Origin: Patescibacteria group bacterium
GTDB lineage: Bacteria; Patescibacteriota; Patescibacteriia; Patescibacteriales; Patescibacteriaceae
Direction: 5' to 3'
DNA: 64,000 nucleotides
Assembly: GCA_028704945.1 (NCBI GenBank)
Contig: JAQWEL010000001.1
Coordinates: 124,001-188,000, forward strand
Part shown: in pieces, positions 26,310 through 45,642 of the stretch
How the letters are laid out: the number at the start of each line of letters is the position of its first letter
Numbering within the stretch: the stretch's first letter is position 1
Notes under the pieces: generated by a model
What the model was told of the DNA's origin: nothing
What the model saw: the letters and a program-made list of their open reading frames with translations, nothing else
Databases searched by the model: none
Made by a program: the position numbers and the translations under genes

Positions 26310-26712
26310 GAAATTAATTATAAATACTGATGGCGGCTCAAGAGGAAATCCTGGTATAGCTGGTTGTGGCGCTGTCTTAAAAACAGCCGATGGAAAAGTT
26401 GTTAGTGAGATTAGCTATTATATGGGTAAAGCCACTAATAATCAGGCTGAATATATGGCGATTGTTAAGGCGATTGAAAAGGCGTTTGAACTCGAAGCCG
26501 AAGAATTAGAATTTTTATTAGACAGCGAATTAGCCGTTAAGCAGTTGAATCGAGAATATAAAGTTAGAAACAAAGACCTTGAAAAGTTGTTTGTTTTAGT
26601 TTATAATAAAACATTAAAATTTAAGAAAGTAAGCTTTAAACACGTTAGACGAGAATTTAATAAAGAAGCTGATAAGCTGGCTAATGACGCCATGGATAGA
26701 AAAAGAAATTAG
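26293..26712 (+). CDS. RNase HI family protein
   Basis: This enzyme cuts the RNA strand of RNA-DNA hybrids. The 139-residue protein has the four acidic residues of the active site: Asp13 in NTDGGSRGNP, Glu53 in NNQAEY, Asp77 in LLDSEL and Asp127 in NKEADKLAN. It lacks the basic protrusion seen in E. coli RnhA, which groups it with the compact archaeal-type RNase HI enzymes. It overlaps the end of recJ. Its stop codon touches the start of the broken tRNA-Val copy (26712). Confidence 0.93.
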   Translation: MEKKIKKLIINTDGGSRGNPGIAGCGAVLKTADGKVVSEISYYMGKATNNQAEYMAIVKAIEKAFELEAEELEFLLDSELAVKQLNREYKVRNKDLEKLFVLVYNKTLKFKKVSFKHVRREFNKEADKLANDAMDRKRN

Positions 26713-26858
26713 GATACGTAGCTCCCGCCTGCATAAGCTGTGCGCTTAGCACCGCGGGCAGGCAGTTGGTTACTTGCCTACCGGCAGGCAAGGAGCGCAC
26801 CGTTCACATCGGTGAGGTCACAGGGGAGTTTATCCGCCTGGGGCGGAAATCCTGTCGT
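26712..26858 (+). pseudogene. tRNA-Val copy interrupted by three palindromic inserts
   Basis: This is a near-perfect copy of the intact tRNA-Val that follows, broken at three points. Insert 1 (26725-26763, 39 nt) follows the D-stem GCTC and has GCCTGC and GCAGGC arms. Insert 2 (26773-26792, 20 nt) is a near-perfect palindrome between the D loop and GAGC. Insert 3 (26825-26847, 23 nt) replaces TTCG of the T loop and holds a TCCGCC/GGCGGA hairpin. The tRNA parts between, including the CAC anticodon arm, are unchanged. The last acceptor bases are missing, so it cannot be a normal tRNA. Confidence 0.8.
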
Positions 26859-26869
26859 AGTTAAAATAA

Positions 26870-26980: not shown

Positions 26981-27148
26981 AAAGCAAGCCAACTGCTTGG
27001 CTTGCGTCAGGATGAGAAAGTCGGAGCGATATACGAGTTTACGAGTATCGCGAGACCGGGCTAGGGTGCTTGCTTTTCGCCAAGTAAAACGAAGGCGAAA
27101 AGCTTAGCAACCGGAGCCGAATCCTGTCGTGTCCACCAAAATAAACCG
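26981..27148 (+). repeat. Structured segment closed by a 31-bp tRNA-Val 3'-end repeat
   Basis: No gene is visible. The stretch contains a CAAGCC/GGCTTG stem (26985-27004) and a perfect 10-bp stem (27072-27081 with 27094-27103). It ends with 27118-27148, an exact copy of 26926-26956 (offset 192) covering the T-loop end, acceptor, CCA and the first bases after it. The layout matches the segment at 73-224 (offset 201 there). Confidence 0.7.
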
Positions 27149-42216: not shown

Positions 42217-43694
<1,478 letters not shown>

Positions 43695-43784
43695 CTAGGG
43701 AGATGTTAATTACTTTATTTTTATCAGTAATTAGCGGTCGGAAATTCAATGTAAGTGTCATTTTGATAAACTAAATTGAATTCA

Positions 43785-43800
43785 TATGAGTTAGCGCCTG
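43785..43800 (+). other. 16S processing stem, 3' arm
   Basis: TATGAGTTAGCGCCTG is the exact reverse complement of 42089-42104 and closes the precursor stem around 16S rRNA. Confidence 0.7.
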
Positions 43801-43894
43801 CGAGGTCTTAAGCCTTGCAAGGTATAAGAAATAGTTTATGGGACTATTTAATCGATTTATAAGTTCAGGTTTCTACCATAAAACGATTAACAAC

Positions 43895-43937
43895 AAAAGA
43901 CTGTTCCGAATTATTTATTAAGCCCAGTCTTTTTTTG
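43895..43937 (+). terminator. Terminator after 16S rRNA
   Basis: AAAAGACTG and CAGTCTTTTTTT form a 9-bp stem with a long loop, then a T run. It separates 16S from the tRNA-Ile gene. Confidence 0.65.
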
Positions 43938-43948
43938 TTATAAATAAG

Positions 43949-44022
43949 GGGCAATTAGCTCAGTTGGTTAGAGCGCAACACTGATAATGTTGAGGTCGGA
44001 GGTTCGAATCCTCCATTGCCCA
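43949..44022 (+). tRNA. tRNA-Ile (GAT)
   Basis: Acceptor GGGCAAT/ATTGCCC, D stem GCTC/GAGC, anticodon loop CTGATAA with anticodon GAT, T loop TTCGAAT, discriminator A. CCA is not encoded (CTA follows). tRNA-Ile(GAT) behind 16S is the classic rRNA-spacer tRNA, here without 23S. Confidence 0.96.
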
Positions 44023-44065
44023 CTAAAATACGACAGTATTTTAAGAGGCAATGAACAATTATTAT

Positions 44066-44138
44066 AGCGGGGTAGAGCAGTTGGCAGCTCGCCAGGCCCA
44101 TAACCTGGAGGTCATCGGTTCGAATCCGATCCCCGCAA
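44066..44138 (+). tRNA. Initiator tRNA-fMet (CAT), unusual
   Basis: AGCGGGG pairs with CCCCGC, leaving an unpaired A1-A72, the mark of a bacterial initiator. The D stem is GAGC/GCTC. The anticodon stem CCAGG/CCTGG holds loop CCCATAA with anticodon CAT. Position 33 is C, not the near-universal U. Only two of the three G-C pairs expected at the base of an initiator anticodon stem are present (29-41 is A-T). T arm ATCGG-TTCGAAT-CCGAT. CCA is not encoded (ACA follows). Its 3' half, from the anticodon loop on, is copied three times downstream. Confidence 0.88.
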
Positions 44139-44309
44139 CAATTACGTCATTTGATTTGTATAACTTAAAGCAGTGGAAAACAATCAGCCCATAATCCCGC
44201 TATGGCGGGATCATCGGTTCGAATCCGATCCCCGCAACAATTACGTCATTTGATTTGTATAACTTAAAGCAGTGGAAAACAATCAGCCCATAATCCCGCT
44301 ATGGCGGGA
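44112..44309 (+). repeat. 99-bp tandem repeat made from the tRNA-fMet 3' end
   Basis: Two perfect 99-bp units (44112-44210, 44211-44309) and a partial third (44310-44336). Each unit holds the T arm and acceptor of the initiator tRNA, a spacer of about 49 bp, then CCCATAA (the tRNA's anticodon loop) followed by a TCCCGC-TATG-GCGGGA palindrome. Read across the joint, each is a tRNA 3' half (44188-44237 and 44287-44336) with the palindrome in place of the anticodon-stem 3' strand. Confidence 0.85.
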
Positions 44310-44592
44310 TCATCGGTTCGAATCCGATCCCCGCAAAATAAATACAAATAAACCATATTGGGTTTATGTAATTAAGAACGATGAAAATAAACATTACATC
44401 GGTCTAAGTGAAAATGTTTTAGTCCGTTTAGATCAGCATAATCAAGGTTTGTCTAAGTGGACAAGTAAATTTAAAAATTGGAAAATTGTTTATACCAAAC
44501 AATTTGGAAATTTGACAGAGGCTAGAAAGTGGGAAAATTATCTTAAAAAGCAAAAAGGTGGTAACGGCTTTAAAAAAATAATTGGCCCATAA
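44272..44592 (+). CDS. Single-domain GIY-YIG endonuclease between tRNA fragments
   Basis: GIY-YIG nucleases cut DNA and often drive homing of mobile elements. The domain spans residues ~28-100 with the three-part core: VYV (Tyr32), YIG (42-44), the catalytic Arg in VRLDQHN (Arg52) and the metal-binding Glu in ARKWENYLKK (Glu88). It is the short UPF0213-like type without a separate DNA-binding domain. The only usual start codon in frame is GTG 44272, so residues ~5-22 are translated from a tRNA fragment (RFESDPRK is the T arm and acceptor). The stop TAA lies within the CCCATAA of the next fragment. No promoter or Shine-Dalgarno; it would be read from the tRNA transcript. An alternative is initiation at a rare codon near 44336. 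Confidence 0.75.
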   Translation: MENNQPIIPLWRDHRFESDPRKINTNKPYWVYVIKNDENKHYIGLSENVLVRLDQHNQGLSKWTSKFKNWKIVYTKQFGNLTEARKWENYLKKQKGGNGFKKIIGP

Positions 44593-44635
44593 TCCCGCTA
44601 GGGCGGGATCGTGCGTTCGAATCGCACCCCCGCAA
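44586..44635 (+). repeat. Displaced initiator-tRNA 3' half with a different T arm
   Basis: CCCATAA (44586-44592), a TCCCGC-TAGG-GCGGGA palindrome, then GTGCG-TTCGAAT-CGCAC-CCCCGCA-A-CA. It matches the upstream fragments except for its T stem (GTGCG/CGCAC in place of ATCGG/CCGAT). It may be the original 3' end of the host tRNA pushed downstream by the element, or another element's copy. Confidence 0.7.
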
Positions 44636-44645
44636 CATTGTGTGA

Positions 44646-44717
44646 GCCGAGGTAGCTCAGTGGTAGAGCAAAGGACTGAAAATCCTTGTGTCGTGAGTCC
44701 GATTCTCACCCTCGGCA
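44646..44717 (+). tRNA. tRNA-Phe (GAA)
   Basis: Acceptor GCCGAGG/CCTCGGC, D stem GCTC/GAGC, anticodon stem AAGGA/TCCTT with loop CTGAAAA and anticodon GAA, T loop TCCGATT, discriminator A, no CCA encoded. It is the last tRNA before a terminator. Confidence 0.95.
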
Positions 44718-44726
44718 CAAATAATA

Positions 44727-44757
44727 TAAAAAACAGCCATTAAATGGCTGTTTTTTA
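44727..44757 (+). terminator. Terminator of the tRNA cluster
   Basis: AAAAAACAGCCAT and ATGGCTGTTTTTT form a perfect stem followed by T. No terminator is seen between tRNA-Ile and tRNA-Phe, so the GIY-YIG gene is probably in the same transcript as the tRNAs. Confidence 0.85.
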
Positions 44758-44802
44758 TATTATTTAATAATTAGCGAAAAAATGATATAATTAATAAAAA
44801 GT

Positions 44803-45642
44803 ATGAATTTAAGCAATCAAAAATTGTTGGAAATATTTTTGAGTAATAGTCATAATCCAATTTTGATTACCGACTTAGATTTTTCCATCATTGATCTTAG
44901 TGCTTCCGCTGAGAGTTTTTTTAAGCAGCAAAAAGGCATGCTGTTGCATACTAAATTTGTCGATAAATTAAGTAATGATAGTAGAAATAAAATATTAGCA
45001 ATTAAGAATGAACTAATAAATAATAAGATAAAAAAGGAACTATTTTTAGATATTGAAATTAAAGATACTTTAAAGTGTAATGTATCTTTAATTTATAAAG
45101 AGATTGACGGGGTAGCTTATTTTTTAATTTTTTGGTCAAGCTCAGTTAATAATGAATATGATAAACTTAGTTTAGGAGAAAAACAAAAAAAATTATTAAC
45201 GATTTTAGATTCTTTGCCAGTAGCTATATTTTTAAGAGATAATAAGGGTTTTTATATAGAATGCAATAAATCATTTTCTTATTTTTTAGGCAAGAAAAGA
45301 GAGGAAATTATTGGAAAGAATATTTTTGATATTTTTTCTAAAGAAGAAGCTGAAAAATTTTATAATAATGATTTAAAGATAATTAATGAAGGAGGGGTTG
45401 ATTATTATGAGGCAGAAATCAAGACTCCTCAGGGGGTAAAAAAGATATATGTTTATAAATCATTAATAAGAGGAAGTAATAATGAAGTGATTGGCATCGT
45501 CGGCAGCTATCAAGATATTACCAACCTGAAAGAAACTGAAAATAAACTTAATCAAAGACTTAAAGAATTAAGACAGGTTAATGAAGTTTGGGAAGAGAAA
45601 AAAAACGAAATATCAAAATTAGAAAAAATTTTAGGTAGTTAA
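44803..45642 (+). CDS. Stand-alone PAS domain protein, 279 aa
   Basis: The protein has a degenerate N-terminal PAS-like region (residues ~1-110) and a clear PAS domain at ~130-245: LPVAIFLRDNKGFYIECNKS, FLGKKREEIIGKNIFDIF, then VIGIVGSYQDITNLKETE. A C-terminal coiled coil (LNQRLKELRQVNEVWEEKK) follows. No kinase, cyclase or DNA-binding output domain follows, and no response regulator lies near, so it could only signal through a partner. It is soluble. It forms a pair with the next gene, which has the same domain plan. No Shine-Dalgarno. Confidence 0.82.
   Translation: MNLSNQKLLEIFLSNSHNPILITDLDFSIIDLSASAESFFKQQKGMLLHTKFVDKLSNDSRNKILAIKNELINNKIKKELFLDIEIKDTLKCNVSLIYKEIDGVAYFLIFWSSSVNNEYDKLSLGEKQKKLLTILDSLPVAIFLRDNKGFYIECNKSFSYFLGKKREEIIGKNIFDIFSKEEAEKFYNNDLKIINEGGVDYYEAEIKTPQGVKKIYVYKSLIRGSNNEVIGIVGSYQDITNLKETENKLNQRLKELRQVNEVWEEKKNEISKLEKILGS

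Follow-up and report, generated by a model that had tools for sequence, protein, structure and literature searches.

How does a small nuclease gene come to lie among broken copies of a tRNA gene while one copy stays intact beside it? The question is raised by a locus in a 64,000-nucleotide stretch (the window) of contig C8, part of a Patescibacteria assembly of 984 kb in 13 contigs. Here a GIY-YIG nuclease gene is accompanied by three fragments of the 3′ half of the initiator tRNA (tRNA-fMet) gene. The original prediction, made from this sequence, was that an element aimed at the anticodon loop carries its own tRNA 3′ half and pushes the resident one downstream. Comparison with other genomes makes it probable that the locus is a minimal homing-type mobile element, formed by one small GIY-YIG gene with parts of the occupied tRNA gene at its borders. 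The earlier idea is partly supported: it appears right in outline and far more general than was guessed.

The broadest evidence comes from 120 GIY-YIG loci drawn from about 380 Patescibacteria genomes (91 loci in relatives and 29 in a phylum-wide sample), for which protein similarity was the sole selection criterion. An intact tRNA gene lies within 300 bp of the nuclease in 62 of the 91 and 22 of the 29, or 84/120 together, against a chance expectation of about 3%, the share of genome sequence that falls within this distance of a tRNA. The original prediction had agreed beforehand to abandon the element if this GIY-YIG subtype showed no enrichment next to tRNA 3′ fragments, and the enrichment beside tRNAs and their fragments is pronounced. 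All 84 nuclease genes point in the same direction as the neighbouring tRNA. On the distal flank, a copy of the same tRNA outscores 20 non-cognate flanks at 61 of the 82 testable loci, where about 1 in 21 would be expected. This displaced copy is the 5′ part of the tRNA when the nuclease lies upstream of the intact gene and the 3′ part when it lies downstream; it usually bears hairpins inserted into its loops. The upstream arrangement with a displaced 5′ half is the commoner one, and the same nuclease family is found at most isotypes. A tree of 90 nuclease proteins (77 columns, many forks unresolved), on which 62 rows entered the anticodon test, requires 35 anticodon changes versus 51 after shuffling (lowest of 300 shuffles, 45) and 50.6 after shuffling within host family (lowest 47), whereas host family leaves no signal (42 changes versus 43.9). 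Nuclease lineages therefore track tRNA identity rather than host. Such target fidelity may come from the enzyme or from the homology arms.

The displacement can be followed most directly at tRNA-Thr. One genome, G032, holds an intact tRNA-Thr(ggt) of the form GCCGAGA...TCTCGGC (GCCGAGATAGCTCAGTGGTAGAGCACTTCCATGGTAAGGAAGGGGTCCGGGGTTCAAGTCCCCGTCTCGGCTC). In its sibling G044, both ends of this G032-type gene, each carrying the hairpin CCCCGCATATTGCGGGG, enclose a GIY-YIG gene together with an intact tRNA-Thr whose acceptor stem differs (GCCGTCT...AGACGGC). The window's genome, a member of a different family, has exactly this tRNA-Thr. Flanking DNA matches G032 on both sides and the locus is syntenic; the occupied G044 and the empty G032 and G013 are alleles of the same locus. 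The resident tRNA-Thr gene in G044 has been split by the nuclease and a foreign tRNA-Thr. The arrival of an element with its own tRNA sequence is thus visible against an empty site, as had been envisaged, but it is limited neither to tRNA-fMet nor to a 3′ half; where the event is clearest, the element brings an entire tRNA of foreign origin. At tRNA-Leu(caa) of G039, sibling comparison points the same way, with an intact gene unlike that of all siblings and a split copy that is sibling-like, at a locus whose synteny is not confirmed.

These two cases bear on another explanation, in which a free-standing nuclease beside tRNA genes makes breaks that lead to tandem amplification of tRNA plus nuclease, after which the extra copies decay and no replacement tRNA is involved. 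The precedent is SegB, a free-standing GIY-YIG homing endonuclease of the tRNA cluster of T-even phages; as set out in PMC13096335 (citing Brok-Volchanskaya 2008), it cuts within tRNA genes, prefers RAWTSGAAC, and amplifies the tRNA and itself in tandem via recombination. Read as its reverse complement, RAWTSGAAC would in our view correspond to T-loop sequences like GTTCGAATC. An exact 99-bp duplication in the window and two loci that duplicate a tRNA 3′ part along with downstream sequence (L178 and L181) are what amplification of this kind could produce, but it does not provide for a foreign tRNA within a split resident tRNA in G044 and G039, nor for hairpins placed alike within an isotype in unrelated hosts. 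Amplification without replacement is improbable as a full explanation.

Back in the window, the gene order is rRNA genes, tRNA-Ile, tRNA-fMet, the three tRNA-fMet 3′ fragments, the GIY-YIG gene and tRNA-Phe (Table 1), and the intact tRNA-fMet is the sole initiator tRNA of the assembly. The arrangement described by the original prediction, an intact gene followed by three 3′ fragments that begin at the anticodon loop and carry a TCCCGC/GCGGGA palindrome, is borne out. All three share one layout: GCCCATAA (the anticodon loop), TCCCGC-N4-GCGGGA, TC, the T arm and CCCCGCA. The palindrome stands where the tRNA has CCTGGAGG, that is, the 3′ strand of the anticodon stem and the start of the variable loop; it is no part of the tRNA, however, but one of a family of inserted hairpins. 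The fragments are also less independent than they had seemed, since fragments 1 and 2 lie within the exact 99-bp duplication and represent one event plus its copy. The last does have a different T stem, GTGCG/CGCAC instead of ATCGG/CCGAT, and this stem is absent from the tRNA-fMet genes of the 30 loci compared. T-stem alleles were considered as a guide to the donor of the window's tRNA-fMet and given up as unreadable, because GTGCG was not seen in relatives. The intact 3′ half here may have come from the element, a reading with which the locus is compatible. The spacers of about 46 nt preceding fragments 1 and 2 are probably a deletion remnant of the same GIY-YIG gene (..NNYVI.., YNLKQWKTISP*), to judge from the translation of spacer 1 (..YVI.. 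and YNLKQWKTISP*) and its comparison with tRNA-fMet-adjacent deletion remnants in G029 and G057.

Table 1. Features of the tRNA-fMet locus, in window coordinates
Feature	Position	Strand	Remarks
Intact initiator tRNA (fMet, CAT), functional copy	44066..44139	+	ARAGORN; Rfam RF00005, 59 bits
Exact 99-bp tandem duplication	44112..44309	+	44112-44210 / 44211-44309, 100% identity
Spacer 1, probable deletion remnant of GIY-YIG gene	44142..44186	+	start and end of gene kept; from direct reading
tRNA-fMet 3′ fragment 1	44187..44238	+	GCCCATAA, hairpin, T arm like that of intact copy, acceptor 3′ strand
Hairpin TCCCGCTATGGCGGGA in fragment 1	44195..44210	no strand	in place of the tRNA's CCTGGAGG
GIY-YIG nuclease open reading frame, 106 codons from GTG	44272..44592	+	domain from 44335; stop TAA 44590-44592 inside fragment 3
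tRNA-fMet 3′ fragment 2	44286..44336	+	GIY-YIG gene directly after
Hairpin in fragment 2	44294..44309	no strand	
tRNA-fMet 3′ fragment 3	44584..44636	+	T stem GTGCG/CGCAC; right end of element
Hairpin TCCCGCTAGGGCGGGA in fragment 3	44593..44608	no strand	

No intron core had been seen, and this also holds. An Rfam scan of 43690-44900 returned no intron, the tRNA-fMet gene is uninterrupted, and a group I intron was rejected for want of a catalytic core in that scan. Direct repeats of tRNA 3′ ends are typical of tRNA-targeted genomic islands, so that the locus might be an island remnant with the fragments as att repeats of a tyrosine recombinase and the GIY-YIG gene as cargo. This is very improbable: the GIY-YIG reading frame is the only recognisable gene between tRNA-fMet and tRNA-Phe, no integrase lies between the repeats, units measure only a few hundred bp, most loci have 5′-half fragments, and one nuclease family serves most isotypes.

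Across 30 tRNA-fMet loci (the window's own and 29 from relatives), the fragment motif occurs in four (G000, G036, G029 and G057), exactly the genomes with this GIY-YIG gene or a remnant. The gene is present at tRNA-fMet in G000 and G036, and deletion remnants of its start can be read in G029 and G057 (ATGAACACAAACAAACC..., ATGAATACTAATAAAAAATATGTAG...). Relatives lacking both gene and remnant have no such fragments, a result on which the original prediction had also depended. At most of the other loci the next tRNA follows 6-117 bp away, free of fragments, and in G039 and G051 another GIY-YIG subtype adjoins tRNA-fMet, also without them. This distribution is hard to reconcile with the idea that the fragments are functional RNA pieces, such as processing or regulatory tRNA-like structures, with nuclease proximity a secondary matter. 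The conservation of the hairpins as structure would suit such a role, but the fragment does not stand out in its folding (z -0.9 and -1.2) and no Rfam family reaches its threshold on the fragments; this is the least credible of the explanations considered. At one further locus (L028, in G014), a different small open reading frame fills the same place between tRNA-fMet and tRNA-Phe, and its product, as we take it, resembles four-helix-bundle rRNA intervening-sequence proteins.

The module of fragment 3, of the form GGCCCATAATCCCGC-N3/4-GCGGGATC, recurs in G036, G029 and G057, and the relatives that have it include a metagenome-assembled genome (MAG) of Falkowbacteria. An exact pattern search also placed it in MAGs labelled Peregrinibacteria, Verrucomicrobia and Acidobacteria, each time beside a GIY-YIG gene or remnant; contig misbinning is possible. 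In the Verrucomicrobia and Acidobacteria MAGs, the GIY-YIG gene is flanked left and right by matching copies of a tRNA 3′ part with its downstream sequence, which indicates that the module moved and the arms are local.

A total of 54 inserts measuring 10 nt or more came from 44 loci. Compared with shuffles of the same sequence, 47 inserts had a better fold than 95% of these; 42 occupy a D, anticodon or T loop, usually without any loss of tRNA bases, and lengths of 20 or 30 nt recur. Their position, counted relative to the first anticodon base, recurs within an isotype across host families (+1 in Tyr, +2 in Glu and several Ser, mostly -2 in Leu-caa) while the letters differ. In eight 30-nt double hairpins from different loci, 96/96 cells are paired, a perfect score partly built in by the choice of the set, and 8 of 12 pairs are changed on both sides (0/500 shuffles); the number of double changes indicates that the stems are kept while the letters change. 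In this small set, the hairpins are conserved as structure. A 20-nt palindrome, CCTGCCTGCCGGCAGGCAGG, is dispersed in some genomes at 0-18 copies per genome, with a tRNA within 210 bp at 6 of 15 sampled loci. In the window's genome, the zone within 300 bp of a tRNA, about 3% of the sequence, contains 12 of the 18 TCCGCC-, TCCCGC- and CCTGCC-type palindromes and 19 of the 56 GC-rich hairpins. That palindromes are random repeats landing in dead tRNA copies was considered and is made less likely by the latter count and by the recurring loop positions within isotypes.

The nuclease gene is real, as had been supposed. Its product matches PF01541 (E 1.3e-15) and keeps all eight subfamily-invariant residues; Y11, Y21, G23, R31, H35 and E67 are invariant across 16 relatives, and the Tyr, Tyr, Arg and Glu that mark the GIY-YIG superfamily are among them. 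Purifying selection is evident in all pairs tested, with pS 0.93 and pN 0.17 per site between the window gene and its G036 homologue. A second GIY-YIG copy in the window's genome lies between a tRNA-Lys 5′ part (hairpin TCCGCCAGCTGGCGGA, anticodon loop CTTTTAA) and an intact tRNA-Lys. A phage origin of the window gene was also considered and dropped: one scan of viral contigs with its protein found no relative, and its PHROG match is weak.

Several observations weigh against a homing element. The window gene is less complete than it had looked. Relatives have CAACATG or ATG immediately at the tRNA end (CCCCGCAACATG in G036 and G029), whereas the window has AAAATA, so that the ancestral ATG at 44338-44340 reads ATA. 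The sole usual in-frame start is the GTG, which reads through fragment 2; either the gene starts there or it may be decaying. Its stop codon, TAA, is supplied by the CCCATAA of fragment 3. The protein is 85-106 aa long with a catalytic domain only (TIGR01453 gives 16 bits against a cut-off of 56), and the C-terminal DNA-binding region of I-TevI/Seg-type homing enzymes is not present in it; SegB is a larger enzyme with its own DNA-binding part. The best relatives of solved structure are UPF0213 proteins, followed by the structure-specific nuclease SLX1. Lacking a homing-type tail and being closest to these proteins, the enzyme could also work in a structure-specific mode. About 30% of the family has no recognised tRNA neighbour. 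Genes of the same superfamily are inserted into a 16S rRNA gene and, it seems, a gene for RNase P RNA (L063 and L147), with inverted repeats at the insertion ends, and lineages away from tRNAs at L135, L136, L151 and L153 are flanked by inverted repeats (CCCCGCACCTTTTAAGC / GCTTAAAAGGTGCGGGG in L135), as though the gene occupied the loop of a long palindrome. At tRNA-Leu of G005 (L170), it is the intact gene that resembles the siblings, unlike the fragments; a second round of invasion could explain this, and on this comparison the locus was dropped as a second case of foreign rescue. Finally, the anticodon arm of tRNA-fMet in carriers is that of unoccupied relatives, which means that insertion leaves an obvious target in the carrier's own gene. 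Self-immunity is the biggest gap of the model: displaced copies are altered and intact copies are not visibly so.

Some of these points would be accommodated if the hairpins themselves drive mobility. A structure-specific nuclease like Slx1 or UPF0213 would then act on hairpins or cruciforms. The palindromes would be what it acts on or the ends of the mobile unit, and genes for tRNA, rRNA and RNase P RNA would be hit because they form hairpins, somewhat as repetitive extragenic palindromic (REP) sequences may be mobilised by REP-associated tyrosine transposases (RAYT). The loop placement, recurring lengths and folding of the inserts, the paired double hairpins (chosen as such), the dispersal of CCTGCCTGCCGGCAGGCAGG, the kinship with UPF0213 and SLX1 and the inverted repeats around non-tRNA members all speak for it. 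On its own, however, this mechanism does not account for a replacement tRNA of foreign origin, an additional tRNA half, co-orientation without exception or the tRNA-tracking lineages, and the clustering of 12 of 18 palindromes near tRNAs shows that they are not freely dispersed in the window's genome. It is rather unlikely as the whole explanation.

A homing-type element would operate as follows. The nuclease would cut within or close to the anticodon arm of a tRNA gene that is still empty, and the break would be repaired from an occupied copy, with the 5′ and 3′ tRNA parts serving as homology arms. The outcome would be a complete tRNA, supplied or re-formed by the incoming DNA, beside the nuclease, and a resident tRNA part displaced to the far side, the state seen at tRNA-Thr of G044. 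Hairpins in its loops would prevent the displaced part from adopting a tRNA fold and protect it from cleavage. Further rounds together with unequal recombination could yield tandem fragments like those of the window, and loss of the nuclease would leave broken tRNA copies. The nuclease is possibly transcribed from the tRNA transcript, which would fit the uniform co-orientation. A more ambitious reading, put forward tentatively, is that the family may be a naturally occurring cut-and-replace drive whose targets are essential tRNA genes, many of them single-copy, at most isotypes of one phylum and reaching other phyla. A single-domain nuclease would break the resident tRNA, install a working tRNA with itself, and mark the displaced copy by structure-conserved loop hairpin cassettes.

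Among known systems, SegB appears by analogy to be the nearest in behaviour and the nearest experimental precedent. Both are GIY-YIG, intronless and adjoin tRNA genes, and the cutting within tRNA genes and joint tandem amplification known for SegB would be shared as well; SegB belongs to a phage rather than a cellular chromosome, and the consulted sections of its account describe neither hairpin-bearing tRNA-half boundaries nor a replacement tRNA. Group I introns with homing endonucleases in tRNA genes are likewise selfish DNA at the anticodon loop of essential genes, but here there is no intron core and a second tRNA copy, not splicing, keeps function. REP palindromes are short palindromes tied to RAYT, a Y1 tyrosine transposase. 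The association of short palindromes with a small nuclease is common to both systems, as seen here in the dispersed 20-nt palindrome and the precise insertions, but the enzyme is GIY-YIG, no Y1 transposase is found in the element, and REP/RAYT involves no tRNA replacement. In the candidate phyla radiation (CPR), rRNA genes contain GIY-YIG-encoding insertions (PMC11270868), which resemble the present element in that small GIY-YIG genes, not linked to introns, occupy genes for structural RNA in the same phylum; the lineages described here differ in tracking tRNA identity. Synthetic home-and-rescue gene drives also cut an essential gene and bring a working copy (PMC7968924), but they are engineered, and at tRNA-fMet there is no evident recoding of the rescue. 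Taken together, an intronless homing variant with a cut-and-replace life style is plausible. In the open literature, with subscription journals and preprints outside the scope, no account of GIY-YIG genes with tRNAs in CPR/Patescibacteria was found.

Other tRNA genes of these genomes have unusual neighbours. One kind (type A), about 100-190 nt long, follows the terminators of Asp, Asn, Gln, Leu-caa, Arg, Gly, Ser and Glu tRNAs; it is found at about 84-222 of the window, after tRNA-Asp, and at about nine other tRNAs (C2, C5, C8, C12, C13/C11). It starts with the reverse complement of the host tRNA's T arm (e.g. GTGGGATTCGAACAGGTTGG), often holding GATTCGAAC, which fits the SegB motif, and mostly ends in ...GCGGAA plus a direct copy of tRNA nt 57-73. 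Type B follows tRNA-Val(cac) and tRNA-Leu(tag) (window, about 27008-27138; C2:36288-36440), reads ...GAGAAAG.CGGAGCGA...GCGAG.CCGGGCT.GGGTGCTTG...CTTAGCAACCGGAGCCGA plus a copy of the tRNA 3′ end, and also follows tRNA-Leu in L170. No Rfam family reached its threshold for type B or for the Asn copy of type A. At 26712-26866 of the window, a broken tRNA-Val(cac) copy with three palindromic inserts lies between the end of an RNase-HI-like reading frame and the intact tRNA-Val; it is probably the scar of an element of the same kind without nuclease. In a genome of the same genus (G001; L013, about 1680-1960), the anticodon loop of tRNA-Phe appears to be split by about 280 nt of sequence that looks like a group I intron. 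A comparable interruption is found at L055, where a GIY-YIG gene is followed by the affected tRNA-His-like gene.

Being essential and nearly immutable, tRNA genes are ideal targets for selfish DNA, provided that the invader spares its host. Introns do so by splicing and islands by restoring the 3′ end, whereas the present element seems to bring or duplicate a whole tRNA. If this is true, mobile elements would have a third means of residing in tRNA genes, alongside splicing and the duplication of att sites, and numerous partial copies of tRNAs, as well as small GIY-YIG genes, in Patescibacteria genomes would be accounted for. The element would also provide a route for horizontal replacement of tRNA genes, as seen at tRNA-Thr, and a natural counterpart to home-and-rescue drives.
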